Of a DNA stretch of 64,000 bases, positions 2,784 to 63,800 are shown one piece after another. This DNA comes from Paludibacteraceae bacterium (GTDB taxonomy: Bacteria; Bacteroidota; Bacteroidia; Bacteroidales; Paludibacteraceae). The notes under the pieces are model-generated. The model was not told the origin of the DNA. It worked only from the letters and a program-made list of their open reading frames with translations, and did not search any database. A program made the position numbers and the translations under genes. Every line of letters begins with the position of its first letter. The stretch's first letter is position 1. The stretch covers positions 25,306-89,305 of the forward strand of contig JAKSNY010000009.1 in assembly GCA_024399495.1 (NCBI GenBank), given 5' to 3'.

Positions 2784-4111
2784 GTTTTAGTCAGTAAATT
2801 GTCCAATTCAGTCCATAATAGAGTCCTCTTTTTTGCTATTTCTGTAACCGTAGGCTTCTTTGACGGCATTTTAGACCCGATGAGGGATATAAGTTTCCTT
2901 GCCTGATTATAGTAGTCCCAGCAGAAAACAAGCATCCACGGACTGAGAATCAATTTTATTATAGCATTAAGTATGCCAAAAATGAATATATCAACTATAA
3001 AAGCCACAATATATGCTAACGGCATAGTAATAAGTGAACTTAAAATAATGTTTATGCCACCTCTGTACATTGTGAATTTCTCTCCAATACGGTCAAATTT
3101 TCCATATAGTGTGTATGGGGCTAAAAAGACAATGAGGTTGGGAATAAGGAAAAACAGGAATAAGGGGAGTAAGAATATCAGCAATAAGGCATCGCATAAA
3201 AGCCAACCGGCAGAGTCCTTGTTGGTGAAAATCCAATCACGCAACCCTGCATCTAATGTTTTTTGCTTTAGTTCCAAGCCCTTTTTGTAGATTTCATTAT
3301 CGGTATCTGCCGATTCCGCTAATTTGGCTGTAAATTCTTGGTCAGCCTTTAGTTTTTGACTCAGAACCCGATAATCCAATCCTTTTAATGTGGCGTATCT
3401 TATGCCGTATGTGTTACGCAGATAGTCTATAGCCTCGTAGTTCTCTGCATCGGGTATGTCAAGCATAACACTGAGCAGAGCGTTGCGTACAGCCTCATTA
3501 ACCTGTCTTTGGGCGGTGCGTGGTTTGGTTTTGTAAAGCTCATAATAGGGGCTGAGGCTTATGGCAGGGGCTATGTTTACAAGCAGGGAGTGGCGGAAAC
3601 GATGGTAGTTATCATAGTGCAGACCTACAGGCAGAATCTTAACATCTTTCTCAAAGTTCTGCTTTTCTGCAGCGGCAAAAGCCATTCTTAGATAACCCAA
3701 TGAGAACTCCCCTAAAAACCGTGATGTTTGATTTGTGGCTTCGGGGAATATGCCAACGCTCTCACCGTTAAAGATTTTATCCTCAACCGATGCAAACTCA
3801 TCGTAGTTCTTGCTGAGACTCTCCTCTCCGTCTGTACGCATACGGTAGGCAGGTATAACATGAATGGAACGGAAAAACTTGTTTGCCAACTTATTGCGGA
3901 ACAAGGCACCATGAGCAAACAGATTTACAGCCCTATCGGGGAACGCAAATTCCAGTGCCAAAGGGTCGTTTATAGCATTCTGATGATTTGCTACAATTAT
4001 AGTAGCCTCACTCTTATCAGGAATGTTCTCCTTCCCCTGTATTTCAATCTTACGGTAATAGATATGGTTGTGAATGAACTGAATGTAGTGATATAAAAAT
4101 CTGAAATTCAT
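2777..4111 (-). CDS. PlsC-family 1-acyl-glycerol-phosphate acyltransferase
   Basis: Probably transfers an acyl chain to a glycerol-phosphate or lysophospholipid acceptor at the inner membrane. The acyltransferase domain spans about residues 20-210, with NHQNAINDP at 42-50 (the NHx4D motif) and FPEATN at 122-127 (FPEG-like, with Ala for Gly). Two large hydrophobic segments near 303-340 and 355-400 add a membrane-bound C-terminus. At 444 residues it is longer than classical PlsC and matches the long Bacteroidota version. The substrate cannot be told from the sequence. It is divergent from dsbD. Confidence 0.85.
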   Translation of the reverse strand: MNFRFLYHYIQFIHNHIYYRKIEIQGKENIPDKSEATIIVANHQNAINDPLALEFAFPDRAVNLFAHGALFRNKLANKFFRSIHVIPAYRMRTDGEESLSKNYDEFASVEDKIFNGESVGIFPEATNQTSRFLGEFSLGYLRMAFAAAEKQNFEKDVKILPVGLHYDNYHRFRHSLLVNIAPAISLSPYYELYKTKPRTAQRQVNEAVRNALLSVMLDIPDAENYEAIDYLRNTYGIRYATLKGLDYRVLSQKLKADQEFTAKLAESADTDNEIYKKGLELKQKTLDAGLRDWIFTNKDSAGWLLCDALLLIFLLPLFLFFLIPNLIVFLAPYTLYGKFDRIGEKFTMYRGGINIILSSLITMPLAYIVAFIVDIFIFGILNAIIKLILSPWMLVFCWDYYNQARKLISLIGSKMPSKKPTVTEIAKKRTLLWTELDNLLTKTL

Positions 4112-4181: not shown

Positions 4182-6056
4182 ATGAAAAGGATAGTGCTGA
4201 TATTGACGCTATTTATATCATCTGTGATTGCATATTCACAGATATCGGCATCATTTCTGTCTAACGGTACTCAGATGGGGGCTATAGGCGGTGCCATGCA
4301 GAATCCTGTAAGTTGGGAGGCTTCTGTTTCCGCTACAGATGGTACCCCGATGTTAACGCTCACAGCCACCATAGACGATGGTTGGCATCTCTACTCCCAA
4401 AATCATAAGGGTACAGCCTTGCCTTTGGTAATATCACTACAGCCGTCAGAATGCTATAAACCGCTACAACAGAAATTTACAGAAATCCCTGAACCCACAG
4501 AGCATTATGACGATTTTCTTAATGAGACAGAACTGTACCACAGTGGTGTTGTCACTTATCAAATGCCACTTCAAGCACTTTGCGACACCACAGTTCAACT
4601 GAATATAAGCGTAGAGGGTCAGGCTTGCATAGACGGTGCATGCGTTCCTGTTGAAACCCAACTCACTGTCCATTGCTCGCTGTCCGTCATAGAGGGTCAA
4701 GGATCAGGGGACAAGGGTCAAGGAGAATCTTTGTGGTGGTTCTTCCTTATTGCATTTGCAGGCGGACTGCTTGGTATTCTGACACCTTGCGTATTCCCTA
4801 TGATACCTATGACCGTCTCATATTTTATGAAACATGGAGGCAGACGGCAGGCATTCTTCTACGGATTCTCAATAGTGTTTATATACGTGGTGGTGGGTAT
4901 AGTCCTATCTGCATTGTTCGGGCAAGGTTTTGCGAACGATGTAAGCACCCATTGGATTCCTAATGTATTGTTCACCGTAATATTTATAGTATTTGCCATA
5001 TCGCTGTTAGGTTATTTTGAAATACAGTTGCCACAGAGTTGGGTTAACGGCTCTGCCAAAAACGAGGAGAGAGCAGGGTATATAGGCACATTCTTTATGG
5101 CACTTACCCTTGTGTTGGTGTCGTTCTCATGTACACTTCCAATAGCAGGGGCGGTGGCATTGGGTGCAGCAAACGGAACGTGGCTTAAACCAATAATAGG
5201 CATGCTTGGCTTCTCACTTGCATTTGCATTGCCGTTCACACTGTTTGCCGTATTTCCGCAGTGGCTTAATAAACTGCCTAAATCAGGTGGGTGGATGGCT
5301 GCCTTGAAAGTCACCCTTGCCATAGTGGAGCTTGCCTTTGCATTTAAGTTTTTAAGTGTGGCGGATCAGGCATATCATTGGAACATACTTTCAAGAGATA
5401 TATTCCTGATTATATGGATTTTACTATTTATAGTGCTTGCCCTATATATGTTTGGACTTATAAAATTCCCTGTAGATGGTGACGGCAGACCAAGACGTAC
5501 AAAAGGAAGAACATCTGTGGGTATAGTGAGCCTGCTGTTTGTGGTTTATATGGTGCCAGGGTTATGGGGTGCTCCGCTTAATGCAATAAGCGGTTGGTTG
5601 CCGCCTATGAACACACAGCACTTTATAGATTCTCCGGAGTGGGAGAGTGGTGCCGTTATGGACTACGATGAGGCTATGGCTAAAGGCAAGGCAGAGGGTA
5701 AGGACGTGCTTGTAATGTTTACAGGCTACGGCTGTGTAAATTGCCGTAAGATGGAGCAGAAAGTGCTTGCTGCTGAGAATGTCACCAAACTTATGAAAGA
5801 GAATTTCATAGTATGTACGCTCTATGTTGATGATAAGGTTACGGCACTCGATGAGCCATACGTTACATCGGGTGGTGACACCATTACACTGCTTGGAGAT
5901 AAGAACAAATATATACAAAAAGTGTTCTTTAACCAAAATGCACAGCCTTGCCATTACATAATTAACCCCGATGATGGGTCTGTAGTGGCAGGACCTATGT
6001 TCTATGAGACCGATGTTGATATTTATTTGAATTTTTTAAACACTAAGATAAGGTAA
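4182..6056 (+). CDS. dsbD: thiol:disulfide interchange protein DsbD (protein-disulfide reductase)
   Basis: Moves reducing equivalents from cytoplasmic thioredoxin across the inner membrane to periplasmic thiols. Order: signal peptide (1-20), periplasmic N-terminal domain with a Cys pair in CIDGAC, eight or so membrane helices from about residue 185 to 460 with the redox motifs TPCVFPMIP and SFSCTLPIAG, then a thioredoxin domain with C518-V-N-C521. The linker at about residues 171-180 (GQGSGDKGQG) is encoded by a heptamer array, which looks like an acquired insertion. It is the first gene of an operon; yicC starts 1 bp after its stop codon. Confidence 0.95.
   Translation: MKRIVLILTLFISSVIAYSQISASFLSNGTQMGAIGGAMQNPVSWEASVSATDGTPMLTLTATIDDGWHLYSQNHKGTALPLVISLQPSECYKPLQQKFTEIPEPTEHYDDFLNETELYHSGVVTYQMPLQALCDTTVQLNISVEGQACIDGACVPVETQLTVHCSLSVIEGQGSGDKGQGESLWWFFLIAFAGGLLGILTPCVFPMIPMTVSYFMKHGGRRQAFFYGFSIVFIYVVVGIVLSALFGQGFANDVSTHWIPNVLFTVIFIVFAISLLGYFEIQLPQSWVNGSAKNEERAGYIGTFFMALTLVLVSFSCTLPIAGAVALGAANGTWLKPIIGMLGFSLAFALPFTLFAVFPQWLNKLPKSGGWMAALKVTLAIVELAFAFKFLSVADQAYHWNILSRDIFLIIWILLFIVLALYMFGLIKFPVDGDGRPRRTKGRTSVGIVSLLFVVYMVPGLWGAPLNAISGWLPPMNTQHFIDSPEWESGAVMDYDEAMAKGKAEGKDVLVMFTGYGCVNCRKMEQKVLAAENVTKLMKENFIVCTLYVDDKVTALDEPYVTSGGDTITLLGDKNKYIQKVFFNQNAQPCHYIINPDDGSVVAGPMFYETDVDIYLNFLNTKIR
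4693..4720 (+). repeat. AGGGTCA heptamer array inside dsbD
   Basis: Four 7-nt units (AGGGTCA, AGGATCA, GGGGACA, AGGGTCA) lie in frame between the N-terminal domain and the first membrane helix of DsbD. The same family occurs at intergenic sites 30221-30259, 51315-51328 and 58060-58087. Confidence 0.75.
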
Positions 6057-6933: not shown

Positions 6934-6950
6934 TCGGTGCTTACGGTATC

Positions 6951-6990
6951 GCATCAACGAATCACCGCATCACCGCATCACCGCATCACC
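6951..6990 (+). repeat. GCATCACC octamer array before gmk
   Basis: Five 8-nt units: GCATCAAC, GAATCACC, then GCATCACC three times. They fill most of the 66-bp yicC-gmk gap and end 9 bp before the gmk ATG. No other copy of this family is seen in the window. Confidence 0.8.
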
Positions 6991-6999
6991 AATAAAATT

Positions 7000-13122: not shown

Positions 13123-13154
13123 CAAAGATACGATTAAATAAGGGCAATTGCAAA
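13123..13154 (-). promoter_or_regulatory. promoter of tRNA-Arg
   Basis: On the minus strand TATCTTTG (genomic 13123-13130) fits the -7 box and TTTG (genomic 13151-13154) lies 20 nt upstream as the -33 box. The -7 box is 17 bp before the tRNA 5' end. The -33 box lies within the left arm of the large inverted repeat. Confidence 0.65.
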
Positions 13155-13257
13155 AAAAACGGAGTTTTTTTGTAGTAATCAGTATGTTATCACAGAGGAA
13201 AACTTGTTTTAGCTTGTGATAATATACTGATTACAAAAACATTAGTTTTTGCAATTG
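13145..13257. repeat. large imperfect inverted repeat between tRNA-Arg and tamL
   Basis: The left arm 13145-13193 and right arm 13216-13257 are imperfect reverse complements over about 42-49 nt. Both outer ends are CAATTGCAAAAA and the inner ends are GTAATCAGTATRTTATCAC; a 22-nt loop separates them. A second hairpin follows (13268-13278 with 13290-13300). Direct copies of AAAGATACGATTAA lie on both sides, at 13124-13137 and 13293-13306. No coding potential is seen. It could be a small mobile palindromic element or a strong cruciform. Confidence 0.75.
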
Positions 13258-13336
13258 CAGAATGTAAGTATCTTCACCGAACGAAGTGAGGTAAAGATAC
13301 GATTAACGAGATGTAGAGTCTTCAGAGAATAATAAA

Positions 13337-15616
13337 CTAGAATGGGAATCCGACTGCAAAGTGCAGAGCGGTGTCCTCCGTTATTTTCCAGCCTGGAACA
13401 AACCTCCACTGCTCACCACTTGGTCTTGCAGGGTCATACGCCTTAAGACCCCAGTCAAGTCTCACTACAAAGAAATCAAAATTAAGTCTCAGACCGATTC
13501 CATAGCCAAATGCAATCTGCTTATAGAATCGGTTAAACTTGAATTGTCCCTCGGCAGTGCCCTCATCATTGAGAGTCCAAATGTTACCTGCATCAAGAAA
13601 TGCGGCAAGCTCCAGTTTCCAGACAAGTTTTGTCCTGTATTCAATGTTTATATTCAGGTTAATGTCACCGCTCTGTTTCATATAGTCAATGTTACTGCCT
13701 CTGGAAGAGTAGTTGCCTGGACCCAAACTACGTGCAGACCAGCCTCTTACACTGTTTGCTCCACCGCCATAATAACGTTTCTCAAACGGAAGTATGTTTG
13801 AGTTCAGATAGGGGATACCTACACCTAATCCAATATGATATACAACCATATTCTTGCTATCAACAACGTGCCGGAAGGCAAAATCAAAATCCATCTTTAC
13901 ATATTGGGCAAAAGGAATCCTGCCCACAAGGTAGGAATCGTTAGAGTTCTTATTGGCATTTGTCGCTGCAGATATTCCGTAGAGCAAATTGCCGCTGGTT
14001 TCTGCCGAACATCTCACCGAATAATTGTTTTGTAATGAATTTGATTTTTTGTTTGAATAGGCTATTGTGTAGCCTATACGCATTATAAGGTGGTCCTCAT
14101 AACTGTATTTAAGCAGGGAGCTATTTATTGTTTTTTTCAGACTGTTGCTCATATAAGGCAGATATACATAGTTGAAATCAAACAAATCAAATTGATGGGA
14201 TATGTCTTTTTTGTCATTCCATTTATAGCGGATACCTGTACCTGCTATTATGCGGGAATAATCTGCACGTATCTGATATGAAAAATTTGCGTAAATCTCA
14301 GTGTTTGTATTGTTGTTTCGTAAGAAGTCCCTTTTTAGAAACGGGCAAAGCAACATAGGCAATCCGATTGAGGCCTCTGTAGCAACATCCCAAATGGAAC
14401 GTTTGCCTATAATGGACTCGTTACCGCCTCTTATGCTGAATTTGAACACCTCTCCACCTCTAAATATATTTCCATGTGCATACGTAAGTTTACCTGCCAA
14501 ACCAAAGTCACCTTCATTATTAGTTCCCTCTATTTGAGCACTTAAGGATTGGACTTTATCCGGTGTCATATACACGTAGCAATCCAATTGGCGGTTTGCA
14601 CTGTCTCCAACTTGTTTAGTCTCTATATTAAGATACTTGAAAATGTGCATTGAAGATAATTTTGCGTAAGTCTTATCCATAAGACTCTCGTTATAAACCA
14701 TGCCAGGGTCTAATAATGTTTTGATGTATAAAGGGTAGGGCCTTATTAGATTGACATTAGAGTTTATAGTGATATTTTTGTAACTTTTTTGTTTGAGTTT
14801 TGATAGTACAGCGGTGTCAAGTATTTGGGTGTAATCCTCCAATGTGATATAATGAATGTCTCTGATTGTATATTTTGCGTGAGATTCGGTTGTGTACTGC
14901 TCTCTTCCGATAATACGTCTCATTGGTTTAATATACATCATAAGGTCCACTTGGTGATTCCCGATGGTACTGTCGGCTATAACACCTACGTATTCTTTGT
15001 CAAATTCATAATAGCCGTTGTTTTTTAACAGTTTGGTAATTCTAATCCGCTCGGATTCCAATACGTCTATGTCAAAATTATCTCCAGGTTTTATCAGGGT
15101 GTTCGCACTGTCAGACAATACCACTTGTTTTAGTGAGTCGTCCAAAATGCCGTATCTGAAATAATGAATTTTATAAGGATCGCCTGCTTTTATATGAAAT
15201 GTCAGGTATGCTTTTTTCTTTTTGTATTTTACATCAGATGTGACTACAGCATTGCCGTAGCCCTTGTTTTCCATATATCTCTTTAACTCCAATTCAGACG
15301 ATTTGGTAAGTGTGGAATCGTATATTACGGGAGCGTCACCAACTTTACGTAAAAATCTATTTATCCATAAGGCTGTATCGGGACTTGACAGACTGTAGAG
15401 TCCTAGATTGAATGGGATAGCATCAAAAAGTTTAGGGTTAGGCATTTGTCTTAAATATGGCTGAATATCGTAAGACTTAACGTTTTTGGTATCGGGTAAA
15501 ATTTTTACCTTGTACAATAGATATTGACCGTCAGGAACATACTTTGTTATCTGGCATGATGTCAACGTCAGTGCAACCAAGATGATAAATAATATAGATG
15601 CAATTTTTCTTGTCAT
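13337..15616 (-). CDS. tamL: TamL-type BamA/TamA-family outer-membrane lipoprotein
   Basis: Omp85-family barrel that in Bacteroidota works with TamB in envelope assembly. With the start at 15616 the N-terminus is a lipoprotein signal with lipobox LTSC (Cys21), the TamL feature that separates it from BamA. POTRA-like repeats follow to about residue 340, then a 16-strand barrel ending in F (FAVGFPF). The conserved barrel motif RGWSARSLGPG is present. An upstream in-frame ATG at 15652 would add 12 residues and spoil the signal. No tamB is nearby. Confidence 0.88.
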   Translation of the reverse strand: MTRKIASILFIILVALTLTSCQITKYVPDGQYLLYKVKILPDTKNVKSYDIQPYLRQMPNPKLFDAIPFNLGLYSLSSPDTALWINRFLRKVGDAPVIYDSTLTKSSELELKRYMENKGYGNAVVTSDVKYKKKKAYLTFHIKAGDPYKIHYFRYGILDDSLKQVVLSDSANTLIKPGDNFDIDVLESERIRITKLLKNNGYYEFDKEYVGVIADSTIGNHQVDLMMYIKPMRRIIGREQYTTESHAKYTIRDIHYITLEDYTQILDTAVLSKLKQKSYKNITINSNVNLIRPYPLYIKTLLDPGMVYNESLMDKTYAKLSSMHIFKYLNIETKQVGDSANRQLDCYVYMTPDKVQSLSAQIEGTNNEGDFGLAGKLTYAHGNIFRGGEVFKFSIRGGNESIIGKRSIWDVATEASIGLPMLLCPFLKRDFLRNNNTNTEIYANFSYQIRADYSRIIAGTGIRYKWNDKKDISHQFDLFDFNYVYLPYMSNSLKKTINSSLLKYSYEDHLIMRIGYTIAYSNKKSNSLQNNYSVRCSAETSGNLLYGISAATNANKNSNDSYLVGRIPFAQYVKMDFDFAFRHVVDSKNMVVYHIGLGVGIPYLNSNILPFEKRYYGGGANSVRGWSARSLGPGNYSSRGSNIDYMKQSGDINLNINIEYRTKLVWKLELAAFLDAGNIWTLNDEGTAEGQFKFNRFYKQIAFGYGIGLRLNFDFFVVRLDWGLKAYDPARPSGEQWRFVPGWKITEDTALHFAVGFPF

Positions 15617-21719: not shown

Positions 21720-21724
21720 AAAAG

Positions 21725-21804
21725 TTTAGGAGTTTAGGAGTTTAGGAGTTTAGGAGTTCAGGAGTTTAGGAGTTTAGGAGTTTAGGAGTTTAGGAGTTTG
21801 GGAG
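21725..21804. repeat. TTTAGGAG octamer array, ten units
   Basis: Ten consecutive 8-nt units over 80 bp. Eight are exact; unit 5 is TTCAGGAG and unit 10 is TTTGGGAG. It fills the space between the lipoprotein terminator and the DUF4293 start. A second array of the same unit is at 23868-23920. Confidence 0.92.
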
Positions 21805-21834
21805 TAAAAAAACGGTGGGGCTGAGCTCCACCGT
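21805..21834 (-). terminator. intrinsic terminator of the small lipoprotein gene
   Basis: On the minus strand ACGGTGG pairs with CCACCGT across a 9-nt loop and is followed by seven T. It lies 27 bp after the stop codon. Confidence 0.8.
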
Positions 21835-23862: not shown

Positions 23863-23867
23863 AAAAG

Positions 23868-23920
23868 TTTAGGAGTTTAGGAGTTTAGGAGTTCAGGAGT
23901 TTAGGGGTTTAGGAGTTCAG
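23868..23920. repeat. second TTTAGGAG octamer array, overlapping the nadE end
   Basis: Six units plus a partial one: three exact, TTCAGGAG, TTTAGGGG, TTTAGGAG and TTCAG. Read on the minus strand the unit is CTCCTAAA, which contains TAA. The nadE stop codon (genomic 23901-23903) and the last codons (ELLNP) lie inside the array. Confidence 0.9.
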
Positions 23921-28443: not shown

Positions 28444-28872
28444 ATGGGACGCATACTTGCAGTGGATTATGGTAAAAAGAGGGTTGGGCTTGCTGTTACA
28501 GACCCAGCTAAAATTATTGCAGGTGGGCTTACCACTGTGGATACTCCTAATGTTTTGGACTATATATGTAACTATGTGGCTACCAACGATGTGGAGTGTA
28601 TAGTGGTGGGGTTGCCAAAGCAGGTTAACGGTAAACCGTCTGAGTCTATGAACTACATAAATCCGTTTGTAGGTAACCTTAAAAAGAGGCTTCCAGACAT
28701 GCAGGTGGTATTCTATGATGAGAGGTTTACATCTGTGCTGGCACATAAGACAATGATAGATGCAGGATTAAAGAAAAAAGATAGAGCAGATAAAGCCCTT
28801 GTGGATAAGATTAGTGCCACTATCATTCTACAGGATTATTTAAATAGTGGAAAGTTAAAAGTGGAAAGTTAA
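28444..28872 (+). CDS. ruvX: Holliday junction resolvase RuvX/YqgF family
   Basis: RNase H-fold nuclease of the YqgF family, linked to Holliday junction resolution or rRNA maturation. It has ILAVDYGKKRVGLAVTDP at the start, VVGLPKQVNG in the middle and FYDERFTSVLA near residue 97, followed by DKISATIILQDYL. The start at 28444 matches the family; an upstream in-frame start would read through the promoter. The C-terminus (GKLKVES) and the stop codon come from a GTTGAAA-type repeat. Confidence 0.92.
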   Translation: MGRILAVDYGKKRVGLAVTDPAKIIAGGLTTVDTPNVLDYICNYVATNDVECIVVGLPKQVNGKPSESMNYINPFVGNLKKRLPDMQVVFYDERFTSVLAHKTMIDAGLKKKDRADKALVDKISATIILQDYLNSGKLKVES

Positions 28873-28983
28873 AAGTTATTACTTTAATTTTCAATTCTTA
28901 ATTTTCAACTTTACTTTCAGTCAGTTTCACAGTCAATTTTCAACTTTCAACTTTCAATTTTCAACTTTCAGTTTTCAACTTTC
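28851..28983. repeat. GTTGAAA/TTTCAAC heptamer region between ruvX and def
   Basis: The left part (28851-28880) has GGAAAGTTAAAAGT units in the plus orientation, inside the ruvX end. The right part (28935-28983) has seven heptamers in the opposite orientation: AATTTTC, AACTTTC twice, AATTTTC, AACTTTC, AGTTTTC, AACTTTC. The opposing orientations could fold on each other in the transcript. It ends 8 bp before the def ATG. Confidence 0.88.
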
Positions 28984-28991
28984 AATTAAAT

Positions 28992-29551: not shown

Positions 29552-29572
29552 ATGTATGATGTATGATGTATG
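29552..29572. repeat. ATGTATG heptamer array, three units
   Basis: Three exact ATGTATG units between the def stop (29540) and the convergent coaE stop (29577). AGGGACAGG just before may be a relic of the AGGGTCA family. Confidence 0.85.
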
Positions 29573-29576
29573 AATG

Positions 29577-30220: not shown

Positions 30221-30259
30221 TCCTTGATCCCTTGACTCCTGACCCTTGACCCCTGACCC
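30221..30259. repeat. CCCTTGA (AGGGTCA-family) heptamer array
   Basis: About five units: TCCTTGA, TCCCTTGA, CTCCTGA, CCCTTGA, CCCCTGA. It fills the gap between the ybbR stop and the coaE start, and reads CCCTTGA on the plus strand. Confidence 0.8.
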
Positions 30260-33377: not shown

Positions 33378-33387
33378 CAAAAAAATA

Positions 33388-35219: not shown

Positions 35220-35331
35220 CAAAGGTACAAATTTTTTTTGTAACTTTTTTTCGCTTCGCTCAAAGAAAGTTACTCACGCTCGGAAAAACAAAATTTTTAT
35301 TTTGTTTTTCCCTCACTTAATCGTACCTTTG
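35220..35331. repeat. nested palindromes holding divergent promoters
   Basis: Outer inverted repeat CAAAGGTAC (35220-35228) / GTACCTTTG (35323-35331), each a -7 box. Inside are a 12-bp stem with one mismatch (35240-35251 / 35262-35273, loop CGCTTCGCTC) and a perfect 11-bp stem (35284-35294 / 35299-35309, loop TTTT). The typA -33 box TTTG (35301-35304) lies in the right arm of the last hairpin, 19 nt before TACCTTTG. Confidence 0.8.
35301..35331 (+). promoter_or_regulatory. typA promoter
   Basis: TTTG (35301-35304), 19 nt, then TACCTTTG (35324-35331): an exact match to the -33/-7 consensus of the phylum. The ATG is 20 bp further. Confidence 0.75.
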
Positions 35332-38916: not shown

Positions 38917-38985
38917 GTTAATAGTTAATAGTTGAAAGTTGAAAGTTGAAAATTATTCATACATCATACATCATACATCATACAT
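38917..38985. repeat. composite GTTGAAA and CATACAT arrays between ompH paralogs
   Basis: GTTAATA twice, GTTGAAA three times (38917-38951), then CATACAT four times (38958-38985; the reverse complement of ATGTATG). Together they fill nearly all of the 85-bp gap. Confidence 0.92.
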
Positions 38986-50499: not shown

Positions 50500-51269
50500 T
50501 AGTATCTTATTTTGTAATGCTCTTTTTGCAGTTTTTTATCAAAAAACACAATCCCAAGATGGAAAATGTCTATGGTGACTCTTACTTTTTCATTGGCACA
50601 TATCTCTTTCCACGCTTCACGCATCTCATCTGAGTGGTTTATGTCATCAAACACAAATATAGTCTTGTCGTGAACTTTTGTCAGGCACTCATTAAAATAG
50701 TTTAGAGTGGGCTCTTTTCTGTGATTGGCATCAAAAAGTACAAAATCCAATCTATCAAACGTACTGACCACCCCTTTTATTGTGTTGTCTATGTTTCCAA
50801 TAACAATCTCCACATTTTTTATACCCCTAAGGTTCAGTGCGGAGATGGCGCAGTTTGCCACAGCCTGACACCCTTCAAGTGATACCACATGTGCCTTTGA
50901 GTCTGTAAGTGCAAGATACATGGTGGTTATGCCTAACGATGTTCCAAGCTCTAAAATGTTTTGACTGTGGTTGCTCAGTGCAATTCTGTATATGAGTTGT
51001 GCTAAATTCTTGCTCTTGAGGCTTGATTTTGCAATGTTGCATATTTTTCTTTTACCCGATGTGCCTGTTCCGTAGTCTGTGAAATCTATCTCCATATTGT
51101 CACTAAGCCACGCACTGCGGAACCTCTCCACATCGCCGTACGCATAGTATTGGTGACTACACTCCATAACATCGGTTACAAACCTATATACAAAAGGGGA
51201 GTGGATTCCAAAACCGCCTTTGGGCTTGGAACTGAACCAATGTTTTATGTAGGCTGTTATTATAGACAA
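50499..51269 (-). CDS. class I SAM-dependent methyltransferase, non-ATG start
   Basis: A Rossmann-fold methyltransferase of unknown substrate. GFGIHSPFVYRFVTDVM opens the protein, ILELGTSLGITTMYLAL is the SAM-binding loop and DFVLFDANHRKEPTLNYF the acidic motif of O-methyltransferases. No in-frame ATG occurs upstream of residue 40 or so; possible starts are TTG 51269, GTG 51305 and TTG 51311. The upstream codons lie in an ATGTATG-family array (read as HTSYIIHYT), which suggests the array replaced the original start. Confidence 0.8.
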   Translation of the reverse strand: MSIITAYIKHWFSSKPKGGFGIHSPFVYRFVTDVMECSHQYYAYGDVERFRSAWLSDNMEIDFTDYGTGTSGKRKICNIAKSSLKSKNLAQLIYRIALSNHSQNILELGTSLGITTMYLALTDSKAHVVSLEGCQAVANCAISALNLRGIKNVEIVIGNIDNTIKGVVSTFDRLDFVLFDANHRKEPTLNYFNECLTKVHDKTIFVFDDINHSDEMREAWKEICANEKVRVTIDIFHLGIVFFDKKLQKEHYKIRY

Positions 51270-51328
51270 TGTATAATGTATGATGTATGATGTATGATTG
51301 TTCACTATCAACTGTCCCTTGTCCCTTA
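51268..51328. repeat. ATGTATG and CCCTTGT arrays at the methyltransferase start
   Basis: Units AATGTAT twice and GATGTAT twice at 51268-51295 overlap the methyltransferase N-terminus. TCCCTTG and TCCCTTA at 51315-51328 run into the stop codon of the DUF4954 gene (51326-51328). Confidence 0.85.
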
Positions 51329-53302: not shown

Positions 53303-53413
53303 ATTAATTAAGAATTAACAACTTTACTCATTACTACGTAATTCGTGAATTTTGTCGTGACTCGGCATAGAAAATGAATTTTCTCTGCTCTCGCTACTCC
53401 AAAATTTCAACTT
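53303..53413. repeat. palindromic element and short array before hflX end
   Basis: The 111-bp gap holds an imperfect hairpin 53365-53388 (GCATAGAAAAT-GA-ATTTTCTCTGC) flanked by CGTGACTCG and TCTCGCTACTCC, similar in style to the hairpins before typA. It then runs into TTTCAAC three times (53405-53425). Confidence 0.6.
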
Positions 53414-53425
53414 TCAACTTTCAAC
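53405..53425. repeat. TTTCAAC heptamer array overlapping the hflX stop
   Basis: Three exact units. On the minus strand they read GTTGAAAGTTGA, giving the last residues VES and the stop of HflX, the same ending as RuvX. Confidence 0.85.
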
Positions 53426-54622
53426 TGACTCATCATATATGTCATATAAAAAATCATTATACGGAAACCGTTGTGTATGAATCTCTTTAACTCTGTCATA
53501 CAACAACTGTTTCAGTTCGTCAATGTTTATCTTGTTCTTTGCCGATATAAATATGCAGTTCTCCTTTAGTTTTGACATCCAAGTCTCTTTTAACTCATTT
53601 AAAGAGATATTCTCCTTGCTTCTCTCTGTAAGGTCATCTGCATCTTTCTCTTTATAAGAGTAGGCATCAATCTTGTTAAAGACCATAATAAGAGGTTTGT
53701 TTTTGGAGTCAAGTTCGCTTAATGTTTTCTCCACCACCTCTATCTGCTCCTCAAAACATGGGTGAGAGATGTCTACAATGTGCACCAGAATGTCTGCCTC
53801 ACGCACCTCGTCAAGTGTGGACTTGAATGACTCCACCAAATCTGTAGGCAACTTGCGTATAAATCCCACAGTATCAGATAAAAGAAACGGCAAATTGCTC
53901 ACTATGACCTTACGCACAGTGGTATCAAGAGTGGCAAAAAGTTTGTTTTCGGCAAGCACCTCTGATTTGCTAAGCAAGTTCATAAGTGTGGATTTGCCCA
54001 CGTTTGTGTAGCCCACAAGTGCTACCCTTACTAGTTTGCCCCTATTTTTACGTTGCACGCTTTTAGTTTTGTCTATATGAACCAACTCCTCTTTTAACAG
54101 AGATATCTTACGCAGAAGAATCTTACGGTCAGTCTCTATCTGTGTTTCACCAGGTCCACGCATTCCTATACCGCCTCGCTGACGGTCAAGATGGGTCCAC
54201 AATCTTGTAAGACGAGGCAACATATACTTGCATTGTGCAAGTTCCACCTGAGTTTTGGCATGGGCTGTTTGTGCTCTCTTAGCAAAAATATCCAAAATAA
54301 GATTAGTACGGTCAAGAATCTTAATTTGCAATTCTGCTTCTAAATTACGCAGTTGGGCTGGGGATAACTCATCGTCAAAAATGGCAAGATTGATATCGTT
54401 ATCTTGTACAAAAGATTTTATCTCTTCTAATTTACCTGCTCCAACAAATGTTTTGGAATTGGCGTAATCAAGTTTCTGAAAGAATTTTTTAATAGTGACA
54501 GCACCAGCCGTATCTGCTAAAAATTCCAGTTCATCTATATATTCCACCGCTTTCCGCTCGTCTTGCTGTGGAGTGATAAGACCAACCAAAATGGCTCTTT
54601 CTATGTACTCTTCTGTTTTCAT
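53414..54622 (-). CDS. hflX: GTPase HflX
   Basis: Ribosome-associated GTPase that rescues stalled or heat-damaged ribosomes. The HflX-specific GPGETQIETDRK motif, G1 GYTNVGKST, G3 DTVGFIRKLP and G4 FNKIDA are in order. 402 residues. The final residues VES and the stop lie in the TTTCAAC array. The tonB terminator sits directly upstream. Confidence 0.96.
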   Translation of the reverse strand: MKTEEYIERAILVGLITPQQDERKAVEYIDELEFLADTAGAVTIKKFFQKLDYANSKTFVGAGKLEEIKSFVQDNDINLAIFDDELSPAQLRNLEAELQIKILDRTNLILDIFAKRAQTAHAKTQVELAQCKYMLPRLTRLWTHLDRQRGGIGMRGPGETQIETDRKILLRKISLLKEELVHIDKTKSVQRKNRGKLVRVALVGYTNVGKSTLMNLLSKSEVLAENKLFATLDTTVRKVIVSNLPFLLSDTVGFIRKLPTDLVESFKSTLDEVREADILVHIVDISHPCFEEQIEVVEKTLSELDSKNKPLIMVFNKIDAYSYKEKDADDLTERSKENISLNELKETWMSKLKENCIFISAKNKINIDELKQLLYDRVKEIHTQRFPYNDFLYDIYDESVES

Positions 54623-57223: not shown

Positions 57224-58095
57224 AGGTTGAGATAGACGGTGATTCCGGGTTCTGCTTTGGAGTTGTGAATGCCATAACTAAGGCAGAGACGGAGTTGGAC
57301 GGCAGTGTAGAGCCTCTATATTGCTTGGGAGATATAGTCCATAACGGCGATGAGGTTAAACGTCTGGCTGAACGGGGGTTGGTGGTGATAAACCATAGGA
57401 ACTTGCCTGCCCACAAGGGTAATAGAGTGCTGTTTAGGGCTCATGGGGAGCCGCCATCTACGTATAAGGTTGCAAAAGAGTTAGGTATCAGGGTTATAGA
57501 TGCCACTTGCCCGGTGGTGTTGAAATTACAGCAGAAAATACGTAAGGCTTATACTGAACACCCTGATGCACAGATAGTTATATATGGTAAGAACGGGCAT
57601 GCGGAGGTGAACGGACTGGTGGGGCAGACAGACGGCAAGGCCATAGTGGTTGAGGGTATAGATGATGAGCAGGGTATTTCAAAAATAGATTTTGGCAAGG
57701 ATGTTCTTCTGTTCTCGCAAACAACCAAATCTATTGATGGATTTAATGCTTTGAGTGCTTTTTTTGGGGGTAAAATGGATAGTGGGGCAAGTTTTACCGC
57801 ATACGATACTATATGCCGCCAAGTGGCTGGACGGCAGCAGAAGATAGAGAATTTTGCCAAGCGTCATGATGTTATTATCTTTGTGGGAGGCGACAAGAGT
57901 TCCAATGCAAAGGCACTGTTTGACACATGTTACGCGGCAAATAAGAACAGCCACTTTATTCAGAATGCGGAGCAGATAGATTTTAAATGGTTTGACGGGG
58001 CTGAATCAGTAGGTATTTGCGGTGCCACCAGTACCCCGATGTGGCAGATGGAGGAGATAGGGTCAAGGGTCAAGGGACAAGGGACAAGGGATTGA
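57211..58095 (+). CDS. ispH: 4-hydroxy-3-methylbut-2-enyl diphosphate reductase
   Basis: Last step of the MEP isoprenoid pathway; carries a [4Fe-4S] cluster. The three cluster Cys are in SGFCFGVVNA, DATCPVV and GICGATSTP. 294 residues. The final eleven or so residues (SRVKGQGTRD) are encoded by an AGGGTCA array and the stop is at its junction with the ATGTATG array; the enzyme core ends with MWQMEEIG. Confidence 0.95.
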   Translation: MSGLKVEIDGDSGFCFGVVNAITKAETELDGSVEPLYCLGDIVHNGDEVKRLAERGLVVINHRNLPAHKGNRVLFRAHGEPPSTYKVAKELGIRVIDATCPVVLKLQQKIRKAYTEHPDAQIVIYGKNGHAEVNGLVGQTDGKAIVVEGIDDEQGISKIDFGKDVLLFSQTTKSIDGFNALSAFFGGKMDSGASFTAYDTICRQVAGRQQKIENFAKRHDVIIFVGGDKSSNAKALFDTCYAANKNSHFIQNAEQIDFKWFDGAESVGICGATSTPMWQMEEIGSRVKGQGTRD

Positions 58096-58141
58096 TGTAT
58101 GATGTATGATGTATGAATAACTTTTAACTTTCAATTTTCAA
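58060..58141. repeat. composite of three heptamer families between ispH and pfkA
   Basis: GGGTCAA twice and GGGACAA twice (58060-58087), then ATGTATG three times (58095-58115), then CTTTTAA, CTTTCAA, TTTTCAA (58121-58141). Three families lie head to tail in 82 bp. The first is inside the ispH coding region. It ends 10 bp before the pfkA ATG. Confidence 0.93.
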
Positions 58142-58151
58142 TTAAATAATT

Positions 58152-59132
58152 ATGGGTCAAATTAAAACTATTGGTGTTCTGACATCGGGAGGTGATGCAC
58201 CAGGTATGAATGCAGGTCTAAGAGCGGTTACACGTGCCGCTATTTGTAACGGTATGAAGGTATGTGCCATATACCGTGGTTATAAAGGTCTTATCACTGA
58301 TGAGGTGGTGGAATTCAAGACTCAGGATGTAAGTAACATTATTCAACGTGGCGGTACTATCATTAAGACAGCACGTTGTCCGGAGTTCGCCACACCCGAA
58401 GGTAGAAAAAAAGCGTATGAGACTATACAAAAGCATAATATAGATGCATTAATAGTGCTTGGCGGTGACGGTACATTCACAGGTGCCAAGAATTTTGCAG
58501 AAGAGTACAATATGCCTGTTGTGGGTCTGCCTTGTACCATAGATAATGACTTGTGCGGCACTGACTTCACCATCGGGTACGATACAGCACTGAATACAGT
58601 GATAGAGTGTGTGGATAGAATACGTGACACAGCATCTTCTCATGAGCGTCTGTTCTTTGTAGAGGTTATGGGACGTGATGCAGGATTCCTTGCACTTAAC
58701 GCCGCTATAGCCGCAGGTGCTGAGGCTGCCGTAATACCTGAGGAGGAGATTAAGAGAGAGGTGCTTGAAGAAGTTGTAGGTAACGGATTCCGTAAAACCA
58801 AAAACAGTAGTATTGTGCTTGTGGCAGAGAGCGATGTTACAGGTGGTGCCAAAGGTATTGCTGAGGCTGCCAGAAAACTGCACCCTGAGTACGATGTACG
58901 TGAGGTTATACTTGGTCATATCCAGCGTGGCGGTACACCGTCTGCTCAAGACCGTATTCTTGCAAGCCGTATGGGCGTAGCCGCCATTGAGGCTCTGCTT
59001 GAAGGTCAGCGCAACATTATGGTAGGTATTGTAAACGATGAGATTGTGTATGTTCCGTTCTCACGTGCCATTAAGGACGACAAACCTATTAACAAACGTC
59101 TGTTTAACGCACTTAGAACACTTTCCATCTAA
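58152..59132 (+). CDS. pfkA: 6-phosphofructokinase
   Basis: ATP-dependent glycolytic kinase. [17 protein letters not shown] at residues 9-25 (ATP site), [14 protein letters not shown] with the catalytic Asp, [13 protein letters not shown] and [14 protein letters not shown]. 326 residues, bacterial type. The uvrA frame follows directly, in the same frame, behind the TAA. Confidence 0.96.
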
Positions 59133-59147
59133 CGGAGGACAAATCTT

Positions 59148-61844
59148 ATAGACAACAGTCAGATAAATATTAGAGGGGCAAGGGTTAACAATCTGAAAAA
59201 TATAGATGTTAACATTCCTGCAGGTAAGTTTGTTGTAATTACAGGTGTCAGTGGCAGTGGCAAATCGTCACTTGCCTTTGACACCTTGTATGCTGAGGGG
59301 CAACGCCGTTATGTGGAGAGTCTGTCATCATACGCACGTCAGTTTGTAGGCAACAAACAGCACCCCGATGTAGATTTTATAGACCATCTGCCGCCAGCCA
59401 TTGCAGTGGAGCAGAAGGTAAAGACCCGCAATCCACGTTCCACTGTAGGCACATCTACAGAGATTTACGATTATCTTAAACTGCTTTTTGCCCGTATAGG
59501 TAAGACGGTATCTCCCATATCGGGTAGTGTGGTTACAAAACACACCGTTAAAGATGTGCTTGACTACATTTCTAAAATGGAGGAGGGTACAGTCTCTATG
59601 CTTATGGCACCGATAAAGGATTCCGCTAAGCTTAGAGTGCTTAAAACGCAGGGTTTCAGCCGTGTGTATGCAGATGGAGAGGTGATTAGGATAGATGATT
59701 TTGATGCGGTAAAGCCTTACAATAGGTTACTGCTTGTGGTTGAGAGATTTACCGCATCAGCGGAACAGGCTTTTCTGAACAGAATGGCAGACTCTGTGGA
59801 GACTGCGTTTTATGAGGGTGGAGGTGTGTGTTTTGTAGGTGATAAGGAGTTTTCTGAGAATTTTGAGGCAGACGGAATAAAGTTTGAGGAGCCGTCTGAA
59901 CAGCTGTTTAATTTTAACAGCCCGATGGGGGCGTGCCCTACATGTCAAGGTTTTGGTAATGTAATAGGTATAGATGAGAATTTGGTGGTGCCAAACAAGA
60001 CACTATCCATTTATGAAGATGCCATAGCACCTTGGCGTGGCAAACTTATGGGCGAGGATAAGCAGAATCTTATACGCCATGCCTCAAAATTCGGGTTCCC
60101 GATTCACAAGCCATATTTTGAGCTTACACCTGAGCAGAAAAAGTTACTATGGACAGGTAACGAGTATTTTTATGGGCTTAATGAGTTCTTTAGGTTTGTA
60201 GAGCAGAACCAGTACAAGATTCAGTATCGTGTAATGCTGAGCCGCTATAGGGGCAAGACCGTTTGCCCTGATTGCGACGGCACACGTTTAAGACGTGAGG
60301 CTCAGTATGTTAAGGTGTGCGGTAAGTCAATAACAGAACTTACTGCAATGCCTATAAACAAATTGCTTGCGTTTTTTGATACTGCCCGGTTTACTGAGTA
60401 TGAGCAGAGTGCGGCAAGTAAACTACTTGCAGAGATAAAATCCCGTTTAGGCTATTTGGTGGATGTGGGGCTTGAGTATCTTACACTTAACCGTGCGTCT
60501 AATACTTTATCGGGTGGAGAGAGTCAGAGAATAAATCTTGCTACATCGCTTGGCAGTAGCCTTGTAGGTTCATTATATATACTTGATGAGCCAAGTATAG
60601 GGCTTCACCCTAAAAACACAGACCAACTTATAGGTGTGTTAAGAAGACTACAGCAGATAGGCAATACTGTGGTTGTTGTAGAACACGATGAGAAGATTAT
60701 AGCCGCGGCAGATTATGTTATAAATATAGGTCCGGGTGCAGGCAGATTAGGTGGAAAGGTGGTTTATGAAGGGTCTCCTAAAGATTATGTGGATACGCTG
60801 ATTAAGACACCTATACCAACGGTACGCCGCCATTGGAACAACTATATAGAGATTAAGGGTGCTACGCAGAATAACCTTAAAAACGTTAGTGTGAAGTTCC
60901 CTATCGGGGTTATAACTGTGGTGACGGGTGTAAGCGGCAGTGGAAAATCAACTCTTGTAAAAGATATTCTGTATGGAGCGGTTAAGCGTTATAAGGGAGA
61001 TATGGTGGAGTCTGTGGGCAGTTTTGGTACATTGGAGGGTAGTCTGAACCTTATAGGTGGCATAGAACTTGTAGATCAGAACCCTATAGGCAAGTCGTCA
61101 CGCTCCAATCCTTGTATATACCTAAAGGCTTTTGATGAGATAAGAAACCTGTTTGCAGAGCAACCTCTTGCCAAGCAGATGGGATTCTCATCTTCTTATT
61201 TCTCTTTTAATACTCCAGGAGGCAGATGTGAGGAGTGCCAGGGTGAGGGTACCATAGTGGTGCCTATGCAGTTTATGGCAGATGTGGTACTTGAGTGTGA
61301 GGCGTGCCATGGTAGGCGTTATAAGCAAGAGGTGCTTGATGTAAAATACAGGGGAGTTAATATATACGATGTGCTATGTATGACTGTGAACCAAGCCATT
61401 GAGTTCTTTTCTGAGGACTCAAATGTAACTGCACAGCGTATAGTTAAGCGTCTGAAACCGCTACAGGATGTGGGCATAGGCTATATAAAATTAGGGCAGT
61501 CTTCAAGTACTCTGTCAGGTGGTGAGAGCCAGAGGGTTAAGCTTGCTTCTATACTTGCCGGCGGTTCACAGCGTAATAAGGTATTTATTTTTGATGAACC
61601 TACAACAGGTCTTCACAGTTCAGATATAGTTACACTTATTAAGGCGTTTAACAAACTTATAGAGAATGGACACACCCTTATTATCATAGAGCATAACCCC
61701 GATGTGATAGTTCAGGCAGACCATATAATAGATATGGGACCTGGCGGTGGTGAAGATGGTGGCTCTGTGGTGTTTGAGGGAACGCTGGAGGAAATTGTAA
61801 AGTGCAAGGAGTCTGAAACGGGGAGGTATATTTATAATGTATGA
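59148..61844 (+). CDS. uvrA: excinuclease ABC subunit A, ATA start inferred
   Basis: Damage-recognition ATPase of nucleotide excision repair. First Walker A TGVSGSGKSS and second TGVSGSGKST, signatures LSGGESQRINLA and LSGGESQRVKLA, zinc sites CPTC, CPDC, CEEC and CEAC. The conserved N-terminus (INIRGARVNNLKNIDVNIP) lies in open frame from 59148, but no ATG, GTG or TTG precedes the Walker A. An ATA at 59148 follows GGAGGA (59134-59139) at good spacing and is the best start; the first TTG (59286) would delete the first Walker A. About 898 residues. The stop is the junction of an array. Confidence 0.9.
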   Translation: MDNSQINIRGARVNNLKNIDVNIPAGKFVVITGVSGSGKSSLAFDTLYAEGQRRYVESLSSYARQFVGNKQHPDVDFIDHLPPAIAVEQKVKTRNPRSTVGTSTEIYDYLKLLFARIGKTVSPISGSVVTKHTVKDVLDYISKMEEGTVSMLMAPIKDSAKLRVLKTQGFSRVYADGEVIRIDDFDAVKPYNRLLLVVERFTASAEQAFLNRMADSVETAFYEGGGVCFVGDKEFSENFEADGIKFEEPSEQLFNFNSPMGACPTCQGFGNVIGIDENLVVPNKTLSIYEDAIAPWRGKLMGEDKQNLIRHASKFGFPIHKPYFELTPEQKKLLWTGNEYFYGLNEFFRFVEQNQYKIQYRVMLSRYRGKTVCPDCDGTRLRREAQYVKVCGKSITELTAMPINKLLAFFDTARFTEYEQSAASKLLAEIKSRLGYLVDVGLEYLTLNRASNTLSGGESQRINLATSLGSSLVGSLYILDEPSIGLHPKNTDQLIGVLRRLQQIGNTVVVVEHDEKIIAAADYVINIGPGAGRLGGKVVYEGSPKDYVDTLIKTPIPTVRRHWNNYIEIKGATQNNLKNVSVKFPIGVITVVTGVSGSGKSTLVKDILYGAVKRYKGDMVESVGSFGTLEGSLNLIGGIELVDQNPIGKSSRSNPCIYLKAFDEIRNLFAEQPLAKQMGFSSSYFSFNTPGGRCEECQGEGTIVVPMQFMADVVLECEACHGRRYKQEVLDVKYRGVNIYDVLCMTVNQAIEFFSEDSNVTAQRIVKRLKPLQDVGIGYIKLGQSSSTLSGGESQRVKLASILAGGSQRNKVFIFDEPTTGLHSSDIVTLIKAFNKLIENGHTLIIIEHNPDVIVQADHIIDMGPGGGEDGGSVVFEGTLEEIVKCKESETGRYIYNV

Positions 61845-61882
61845 TGTATGATGTATGATGTATGGTGTATGATGTATGATGT
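61837..61882. repeat. ATGTATG heptamer array at the uvrA end
   Basis: Six units (five exact, one GTGTATG) plus a partial unit. The uvrA stop TGA (61842-61844) falls on the first junction, so the last residues NV and the stop come from the array. Confidence 0.92.
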
Positions 61883-61888
61883 AAAAAA

Positions 61889-61934: not shown

Positions 61935-63800
61935 TTATTCTGCTTTTTCTGCATCGTCTGCCTTAGCGGCTTTCTTTGTGGTCTTTTTAGCCGCAGGTTT
62001 TTCTGCTTTTTCTGCCTTGGCCTCGCTCTTAGAGAGTTGCTCTTTAAGCTGTGCAAGACCCTCTATATCGCCAAGGGTAGTCTTCTCCATTTGTGGAGCG
62101 TCCTCTTTCTTGGCTTTCTTAGCTTTCTTCTCTGTAGCAGGAGCATCGCCGTTGGCTGCCTTTTGAGCATCCTCAAATATACGGCTGTGAGAAAGGATGA
62201 TACGTTTTGCATCCTTGTTGAACTCTATTACCTTGAAGTCAAGTTTCTCATCAAGTTTGGCTTGTGAGCCATCTTCTTTTACAAGGTGTTTAGGAGTTGC
62301 AAAGCCCTCGATACCATACTCAAGAGAGATTACTGCACCCTTGTCCATCATTTCTATAATGGTACCTTGGTGAATTGAATCCACTGTAAATATAGTCTCA
62401 TACGTATCCCAAGGATTGTCCTCTAACTGCTTGTGACCAAGGCTTAGACGACGGTTCTCCTTATCTATTTCAAGAACCACTATGTCTATCATTGCATCAA
62501 GAGTGGTAAACTCTGACGGGTGTTTGATTTTCTTTGTCCAAGATAGGTCTGAGATGTGGATTAGACCATCAACACCCTCTTCAAGTTCTACAAATACACC
62601 AAAGTTAGTGAAGTTACGTACTTTTGCAGTGTGCTTGCTGCCTATTGCATATTTCTCATCGATGTTAATCCATGGATCCTCTTTAAGTTGCTTGATGCCA
62701 AGAGACATCTTACGCTCATCGCGGTCAAGAGTAAGGATTTGGGTCTCTATAGTGTCGCCAACCTTAACGAAATCCTGTGCAGAACGCAGGTGTTGTGACC
62801 AGCTCATCTCTGATACGTGTACAAGACCCTCTACACCCGGAGCAATCTCTACAAATGCACCGTAATCTGCTACAACTACGACCTTACCTGTTACCTTGTC
62901 TCCTACCTTCAGGTTAGGGTCAAGTGCCTCCCAAGGTTGTGGTGTAAGTTGTTTAAGACCAAGTGCTATACGTGTCTTCTCCTCATTGAAATCAAGGATA
63001 ACAACGTTAATCTTCTGGTCAAGTGTAAGAATCTCACTTGGGTGAGAAATTCTACCCCAAGATAGATCTGTAATATGGATAAGACCATCAACACCGCCAA
63101 GGTCTATGAAACAGCCGTAAGGCTCTATGCCCTTAACAACACCTTCAAGTACCTGACCTTTTTCAAGTTTGCTGATAATCTCTTTCTTCTGTTGTTCTAT
63201 CTCAGCCTCTATAAGTGCCTTGTGAGATACAACTACGTTTCTGAACTCATGGTTGATTTTAACAACCTTAAAGTCCATAGTTTTGCCTACAAATACATCG
63301 TAGTCACGTATAGGCTTAACATCTATTTGTGAACCTGGTAAGAATGCCTCTATACCAAATACATCTACAATCATACCGCCCTTTGTACGGCTCTTGATGA
63401 ATCCCTTAATAATCTCATCGTTGTTAAGAGCCTCATTAACTCTATCCCAAGAGCGTGCGCTGCGGGCTCTCTTATGTGAAAGGATAAGCTGTCCTTTTTT
63501 ATCTTCTTGTGATTCTATGAAGACCTCTACCTTATCTCCAATTTTAAGGTCCGGATTGTAACGGAACTCATTCATAGATACAATACCGTCAGACTTGTAG
63601 CCTATATTAACTACAACCTCACGTTTGTTCATGGCAATTACGGTACCGTCAACCACATCGCTTGTGTTAATCTGGCTAAGTGTCTTGTCGTAAGCCTGTT
63701 TTTGGTCTTCTTGGCTCATAGATGTCTCTACGGCGCCATTCTCATACGCATTCCAGTCGAAATCCTCGACTCCCTGCATGCTAATTGTTTTCTTTGTCAT
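61935..63800 (-). CDS. rpsA: 30S ribosomal protein S1
   Basis: Binds mRNA on the ribosome. Six S1 domains from about residue 48 to 560, for example GVVKGIEPYGCFIDLGGVDGLIH, GKVVVVADYGAFVEIAPGVEGLVH and AKVRNFTNFGVFVELEEGVDGLIH, followed by a Lys/Ala-rich tail. 621 residues. Monocistronic with its own promoter and terminator. Confidence 0.96.
   Translation of the reverse strand: MTKKTISMQGVEDFDWNAYENGAVETSMSQEDQKQAYDKTLSQINTSDVVDGTVIAMNKREVVVNIGYKSDGIVSMNEFRYNPDLKIGDKVEVFIESQEDKKGQLILSHKRARSARSWDRVNEALNNDEIIKGFIKSRTKGGMIVDVFGIEAFLPGSQIDVKPIRDYDVFVGKTMDFKVVKINHEFRNVVVSHKALIEAEIEQQKKEIISKLEKGQVLEGVVKGIEPYGCFIDLGGVDGLIHITDLSWGRISHPSEILTLDQKINVVILDFNEEKTRIALGLKQLTPQPWEALDPNLKVGDKVTGKVVVVADYGAFVEIAPGVEGLVHVSEMSWSQHLRSAQDFVKVGDTIETQILTLDRDERKMSLGIKQLKEDPWINIDEKYAIGSKHTAKVRNFTNFGVFVELEEGVDGLIHISDLSWTKKIKHPSEFTTLDAMIDIVVLEIDKENRRLSLGHKQLEDNPWDTYETIFTVDSIHQGTIIEMMDKGAVISLEYGIEGFATPKHLVKEDGSQAKLDEKLDFKVIEFNKDAKRIILSHSRIFEDAQKAANGDAPATEKKAKKAKKEDAPQMEKTTLGDIEGLAQLKEQLSKSEAKAEKAEKPAAKKTTKKAAKADDAEKAE

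Follow-up and report, generated by a model that had tools for sequence, protein, structure and literature searches.

Many gene junctions of an uncultured Paludibacteraceae gut bacterium hold short direct tandem repeats with a constant unit of seven nucleotides, or of eight in a second class. We explain these arrays as simple-sequence repeats that are resized by slippage and depend on an additional seeding step, a reading to which we give a probability of roughly 60%. The constant unit size with varying letters, which can be swapped at one and the same gap, points to one repeat-making process in these bacteria.

The window is the whole stretch of 64,000 nucleotides analysed here. It belongs to a 2.08-Mb genome (G000) whose assembly is fragmented and 82.5% complete. 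Comparisons covered the 16 genomes of the genus (G000 and the congeners G001–G015, several of which are incomplete MAGs) and 267 fetched loci (L-numbers), L033–L047 being from other Bacteroidota. The sister species is G010 (contig L031, from a horse-feces MAG of the Paludibacteraceae); G120 agrees with G010 in the counts and places of ATGTATG, and the two were taken as one genome. A G010 contig is collinear with window positions 3672–64000. Nucleotide identity between G000 and G010 is 85% overall, 91% from 53429 on and 64% at fourfold sites, and the ispH genes of L031 and G000 are 95% identical. Genes were called by a longest-ORF rule (at least 90 amino acids), so that distances to start codons are approximate.

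At the junction between ispH (left) and pfkA (right), both identified with NCBIfam, three families follow one another, as a sequence-only reading had described. From 58060 onward the units are GGGTCAA twice, GGGACAA twice, GGGATTG, ATGTATG three times, AATA, ACTTTTA, ACTTTCA, ATTTTCA and ATT, that is, GGGWCAA ×4, ATGTATG ×3 and a degenerate YTTTYAA. TRF returned period-7 arrays at 58059–58091, 58093–58116 and 58129–58143. The ispH frame passes through the GGGWCAA units, and its stop codon, TGA at 58093–58095, opens the ATGTATG array. G000 has four GGGWCAA units at 58059 and the sister species three, a difference of exactly one unit. The contents of this slot and of those at gmk, nadE, 51276, 53405 and 61837 were read by eye in the congeners. 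Among 15 loci at ispH–pfkA, TTTTCAA alone is present in G003 and ATTACTA-type heptamers in G002, no array was seen in nine other congeners, and two loci were not readable; ATGTATG was not seen in any of the 11 other readable congener junctions.

Table 1. Repeat arrays of the window, with their state in the sister species (G010) where compared.
Array	Position	Strand	Remark
Degenerate GGGWCAA	4693..4724	+	Inside dsbD-like ORF, translated as Gly/Gln-rich stretch
CATCACCG octamer	6950..6990	+	Within 67-nt insert upstream of gmk
CCTAAACT octamer	21723..21805	-	G010 slot instead holds GGGWCAA-type heptamers
CCTAAACT octamer	23866..23917	-	3 nt before start codon, downstream of nadE
Degenerate TTRAAAG / YTTTYAA assemblage	28840..28987	+	Fills junction; mostly missing from G010
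ATGTATG	29552..29573	+	Convergent gap; identical in G010
GGGWCAA-type	30222..30259	-	Diverged in G010, 28/38 letters identical
YTTTYAA	33387..33417	-	AATTGAA variants in G010
AACTATT + CTTTCAA	38917..38951	-	Before start codon; G010 without them
ATGTATG	38957..38985	-	Common to G000 and G010
ATGTATG/AATGTAT	51268..51298	+	Shared with G010; antisense, exception to polarity
GGGACAA	51313..51327	-	Missing from G010
CTTTCAA	53405..53426	+	At end of 131-nt insert
GGGWCAA, 4 units	58059..58091	+	Overlaps ispH 3' end, translated as last ispH residues
ATGTATG, 3 units	58093..58116	+	Starts at ispH stop codon; identical in G010
YTTTYAA (ACTTTTA ACTTTCA ATTTTCA)	58118..58143	+	Ends 8 nt 5' of pfkA start at 58152
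ATGTATG	61833..61883	+	uvrA 3' end, before hairpin; G010 one unit fewer

The other array sites named in that reading are real in the sequence, but a place in a junction was wrongly ascribed to the array at 4693 (Table 1), which is degenerate and not in the TRF list at score 30. From one genome to another, an orthologous junction may vary by whole units, carry another word or lack an array altogether. Where G000 has the insert upstream of gmk, stop and start codons overlap in G010; of the 15 loci at this slot, 10 besides that of G010 likewise have a junction that is short or overlapping, about two units of the octamer word CATCACCG stand in G002, and the upstream sequence is a different one in G001 and G012. 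At the nadE slot (23866), GGGWCAA-type heptamers stand in G010 in place of the CCTAAACT octamers of G000. As judged by eye over 13 loci, G009 carries GTTAGGA-type, G004 GTTTAATC-type and G006 octamer arrays, none was seen in G003, G002, G012, G014 or G015, and G001, G008 and G013 were ambiguous. The 53405 slot is empty in G010 and G003, holds ATTAGYA heptamers in G002, and showed no array by eye in G012 and G001. GTTGAYA heptamers occupy the same place in G001 as ATGTATG at 61837 in G000, with no clear array by eye in G003, G002 and G012. At 51276 no congener besides G010 showed an array, several flanks there being badly aligned.

Some further features lie beside these arrays. Two stretches of the window, 13130–13338 and 35256–35292, are inserts relative to G010 without any heptamer array in G000; G010, for its part, carries AATTGAA heptamers at 13130. 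Short repeats also occur in the C-terminal tail of ribosomal protein S1 (61998–62129), which in G010 has an extra 45 nt. ATGTATG arrays are often followed by a dispersed module of 79 nt with GGGCGTAAGCCC-type hairpins, as at L059:17048–17312 and elsewhere in G000; in L059 the pair of array and module is repeated every 124 nt. Several small genes of L061 and L062 (for example at L062:7985) start with ATGAAAAAGAATTATTC (MKKNYS) directly after YTTTYAA arrays; they seem to share a 40-nt word and are possibly a multicopy small-protein family. An Rfam search matched a tRNA only.

The excess over chance is confined largely to two periods. In 223 intergenic gaps of the first G000 sample (38,688 bp) we counted 46 exact arrays of period 7 and 15 of period 8, against means of 0.13 (maximum 1) and 0.14 (maximum 2) in 100 order-3 simulations. 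The same gaps gave one array each at periods 10 and 11, three at period 12 and none at periods 4, 5, 6 and 9. Random intergenic sequence of this composition yields far fewer arrays, whereas equal numbers were among the outcomes that the sequence-only reading had named as a refutation. Its statement that the units are always 7 nt long holds for the main class, but the 8-nt families form a second one. Across the whole window, 10 period-7 and 4 period-8 arrays with at least 12 lag matches compare with none in 30 order-3 Markov simulations. The head-to-tail arrays, longer than chance allows in this genome, fall within the long simple sequence repeats, whose units measure 5–11 nt. In the 459 kb of this G000 sample, at a threshold specific to this count, 92 arrays lay between ORFs or at the edge of one, against 10 within an ORF.

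Arrays were found in 111 of 399 gaps of at least 20 nt in G000, 31 of 156 in G010, 37 of 168 in G002 and 8 of 87 in G003, and in none of 126 such gaps of the other Bacteroidota, whose whole sequence (280 kb) contained two period-7 arrays and one of period 8. G009 had no period-7 or period-8 array in 40 kb and G011 two in 60 kb; the array habit is not universal within the genus as sampled. A threshold-free lag correlation, with modest z-scores (2 to 4.4), placed lag 7 at the top in G000, G010, G001 and G043 and level with lag 3 in G002 and lag 4 in G065. Lag 7 was not the top lag in G003, G012, G011, G009, the pooled small contigs or the other Bacteroidota.

The words themselves recur throughout the genome. 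Two-unit patterns were counted as overlapping match positions, so that one long array counts several times. The two-unit ATGTATG pattern (ATGTATGATGTATG) has 301 match positions in the 2.08 Mb of G000 and none when reversed, and two-unit GGGWCAA has 43. For G000, G010, G003, G002, G001 and G012, respectively, the counts are 301, 189, 0, 2, 3 and 0 for ATGTATG; 43, 53, 5, 9, 0 and 0 for GGGWCAA (elsewhere at most 9); 25, 1, 4, 0, 55 and 6 for CTCCTAAA; and 96, 21, 5, 6, 15 and 30 for two-unit TTTCAAC, whose reversed-pattern control is invalid, since the CTTTCAA unit reads the same when mirrored. Two-unit ATGTATG has 0–3 match positions in the 14 congeners other than G010, 18 and 19 in G043 and G065, each from a further genus of the family, and one each in five more genomes, making 11 of 120 genomes in total. 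TTTCAAC is more widespread (25 of 73 genomes). Words at the 7/8 peak include AATAATT, AATTACT and AAAGGAG in G002 and AAACTCCT and AACTGTC in G001. Different congeners amplified different words, separately. Several of them keep the period and change the words, which agrees with the earlier proposal that different words of the same unit size and placement come from one kind of generating process.

Length changes between G000 and G010 were assessed by eye within shared arrays: seven were multiples of 7 and two were not (38 and 10 nt). The seven unit steps lie at 58059, 61837, L057:5821 (twice), L065:12233 (taken from an earlier comparison, its flank being missing in a later one), L065:17661 and L250:10089. 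Sites where the array and other sequence change together (38917, 51276, L064:2610 and L253:16906) were left out of this list, and 29552, 33387, L056:1417 and L257:7967 have no indel. A MAFFT alignment of the window with G010 was less clean than this selected list, with indels at arrays of 1, 7, 7, 11, 14, 28 and 41 nt. The whole-unit changes in copy number typical of long simple sequence repeats were thus seen between species, among cases selected by eye. They fit slippage as the source of copy number, one of the mechanisms considered at the outset; of telomere-like addition, another of these, no sign was seen.

The larger G000 sample comprises 150 array loci, and for 28 of these the fetched part of G010 offered a slot to compare. 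The two species share ATGTATG at 13 of its 15 comparable loci; for the other named words the figure is 6 of 18 (Fisher p 0.004), nine one-locus words (one shared, eight not) having been dropped. Here sharing means an exact stretch of the unit plus four letters, and variant arrays such as that at 33387 count as not shared for CTTTCAA. Shared ATGTATG arrays are identical at 22/22, 29/29, 30/31 and 44/44 letters, the whole 58059–58143 stack at 78/78 and YTTTYAA at 33387 at 28/31. Such low divergence inside arrays may reflect homogenisation as well as selection. In a neighbour-unit test, 11 of 22 neighbours were identical for GGGWCAA against 7.8 after shuffling (P 0.06), and 11 of 36 for TTYAACT against 14.2.

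ATGTATG lies in sense after stop codons in both G000 and G010. In codirectional gaps, sense and antisense counts were 31 and 3 in the first 459 kb of G000 (p 8e-7), 16 and 1 in held-out G000 stretches fetched later (p 3e-4) and 22 and 4 in G010 (p 5e-4). The word was also commoner in convergent (10/39) than in divergent gaps (3/70; p 0.002). The polarity was lacking in the two other genera (G043, 4 to 4; G065, 1 to 3), whose stretches were chosen for holding ATGTATG and are a biased sample. YTTTYAA in G000 was nearer the start codon in 22 of 28 sense cases and nearer the stop in 14 of 15 antisense cases (p 9e-6), with no overall strand bias in the first sample (17:8, p 0.11) or the held-out one (11:7, p 0.48). 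GGGWCAA had no strand bias either (3:1, then 0:2); the corresponding counts were 5:2 and 1:0 for CATCACCG/AATCACCG, and 5:0 with none held out for CCTAAACT.

The families also keep an order. Within 100 nt of ATGTATG, same-strand YTTTYAA lay on the 3' side in 10 of 10 cases in G000 and 4 of 4 in G010, with one opposite-strand case besides, and CATCACCG did so in 7 of 7. GGGWCAA occurs on both sides of ATGTATG within this distance, so its leading position at 58060 is no rule. Two possible causes of polarity were rejected. A requirement that the sense strand offer stop codons beside the upstream gene held for ATGTATG and YTTTYAA only, the other words giving 17 versus 13. Replication strand was judged from minority-strand genes as a proxy, and ATGTATG followed the genes in 4/4 cases in G000, 7/7 in G010 and 1/1 held out.

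In the explanation we favour, copy number would be set by slippage at replication or repair. Loops of this size would escape mismatch repair. One word at scores of loci is beyond slippage alone, so a second step is needed, which would copy short lineage-specific words into other junctions; ectopic copying via microhomology is our preferred guess for it. Insertions that break genes would be removed by selection, so that arrays remain at gene ends. ATGTATG and YTTTYAA would be kept with a constant polarity towards stop and start codons, a pattern suggesting that the mRNA is where they act or are tolerated, in the 3' end and the 5' leader, respectively.

Growth by slippage alone, each junction enlarging a repeat from its own seed, is very improbable. 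It would account for the whole-unit length changes, the many different words of G002 and the roughly two octamer units at its gmk junction, but match positions of one word by the hundred, with none for its mirror, are hardly independent, and several relatives have no seed at the same junctions. Fixed words must disperse to many loci, as the mobile short repeat mentioned in the sequence-only reading would. Possible, at perhaps a third of the weight of our preferred reading, is that the arrays are what can be seen of small non-autonomous REP- or MITE-like elements, moved by a transposase and then eroded. Presence and absence are clean at 6934–6997 and 53303–53428, and the 79-nt hairpin module lies within 100 nt on the 3' side of 12, and the 5' side of one, of 75 ATGTATG arrays in G000; however, none of 35 in G010 has it nearby, no ends common to the inserts were seen by eye, and the words combine in different sets. 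Terminal inverted repeats, the mark of MITEs, were sought in three stretches, and no pair of at least 10 nt was found. Y1_Tnp/RAYT (PF01797) matched only in G005 and G009, with no match in G000 and 13 of the 15 congeners, several of these MAGs being incomplete. No RAYT gene was found in G000, G010, G001, G002, G003 or G012; RAYT-driven dispersal is not supported, as Y1_Tnp is lacking in G000 and its nearest genomes.

Selected clusters of sites for an RNA- or DNA-binding protein with a 7–8-nt pitch, for instance in leader or 3'-end regulation of the kind put forward for TAACTGA repeats, are a somewhat less probable source of the arrays than mobile elements. Such sites would suit the gene-end polarity of ATGTATG and YTTTYAA, their fixed order on the same strand and the better sharing of ATGTATG with G010. 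Against them, the same junction holds different words in different congeners, the other families are labile, GGGWCAA stands on either side of ATGTATG and ten scanned proteins had no common function. More doubtful still is a dedicated process of the genus that writes 7- or 8-nt words into junctions. An enzyme would set the step length and a template or donor the letters, because congeners use different vocabularies, and writing would perhaps be coupled to transcript ends, because ATGTATG lies in sense after stops and YTTTYAA towards starts. We give hardly any credence to an assembly artefact: G000 is fragmented and incomplete and its contig C3 begins within an ATGTATG array, but the arrays are short and the same ones stand in the same places in the separate assembly of another species, G010.

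STRR is the name given to the heptamer repeats of cyanobacteria. As there, several heptamer words occur in one genome here, in another lineage and with other words; the relevant part of PMC4692102 lists three heptanucleotides for Calothrix. In the portions consulted, MacGregor (2015, PMC4679880) describes direct repeats of the heptamer TAACTGA in Beggiatoaceae, Cyanobacteria and some Bacteroidetes; these repeats lie between genes, most of them forward and close before a start codon. Gramella, A. sublithincola and Elizabethkingia have further heptamers in TAACTGA junctions, and in some relatives the junctions are shorter and without obvious repeats (PMC4679880, same portions). With that published heptamer assemblage and heptanucleotide excess in view, the sequence-only reading went too far in naming no described counterpart. 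The present arrays resemble the TAACTGA repeats, as those passages portray them, in being intergenic 7-nt direct repeats with several heptamers per junction, and differ in their many words per genome, in word replacement at orthologous junctions and in one word tied to stop codons. Sense YTTTYAA (22/28) and CCTAAACT (5/5) fit the TAACTGA-like placement, forward and just before the start, and ATGTATG does not. Tandem TAACTGA itself (TAACTGATAACTGA) occurs neither in the window nor in the 267 fetched loci.

As recounted in parts of PMC4679880 and PMC4692102, Mrazek et al. (2007) found heptanucleotide repeats to be the most abundant class in most genomes and proposed slippage, 7 nt being taken as the contact length of a polymerase; that work, in those accounts, counts per genome, with no mention of slot-swapping or gene-end polarity. 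The passages of PMC4692102 on the GGGAATC repeats of Xanthomonas and the GGGGA(T/C)T repeats of Nostoc describe abundant heptamers of variable copy number. GGGWCAA shares their G-rich strand; by the same passages, those genomes have one dominant G-rich word with G-quadruplex potential, whereas most words here are A+T-rich. A literature search over titles and the starts of abstracts, with thin coverage of subscription papers, found no ATGTATG arrays, no Bacteroidales heptamer repeats beyond PMC4679880 and no description of slot-swapping or stop-codon polarity. The arrays are a variant of the published heptamer-repeat kind, to which slot-swapping at constant period and stop-codon polarity are additions not found in that literature.

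Separating the unit length, which is constant, from the letters, which vary between congeners, converts the long-standing remark on a preference for heptamers among bacterial repeats into a testable question of what sets the 7-nt step. Empty, swapped and expanded junctions at orthologous places in the genus (16 genomes) amount to a natural series, and the polarity of ATGTATG and YTTTYAA provides a concrete hypothesis on mRNA ends in these Bacteroidales.
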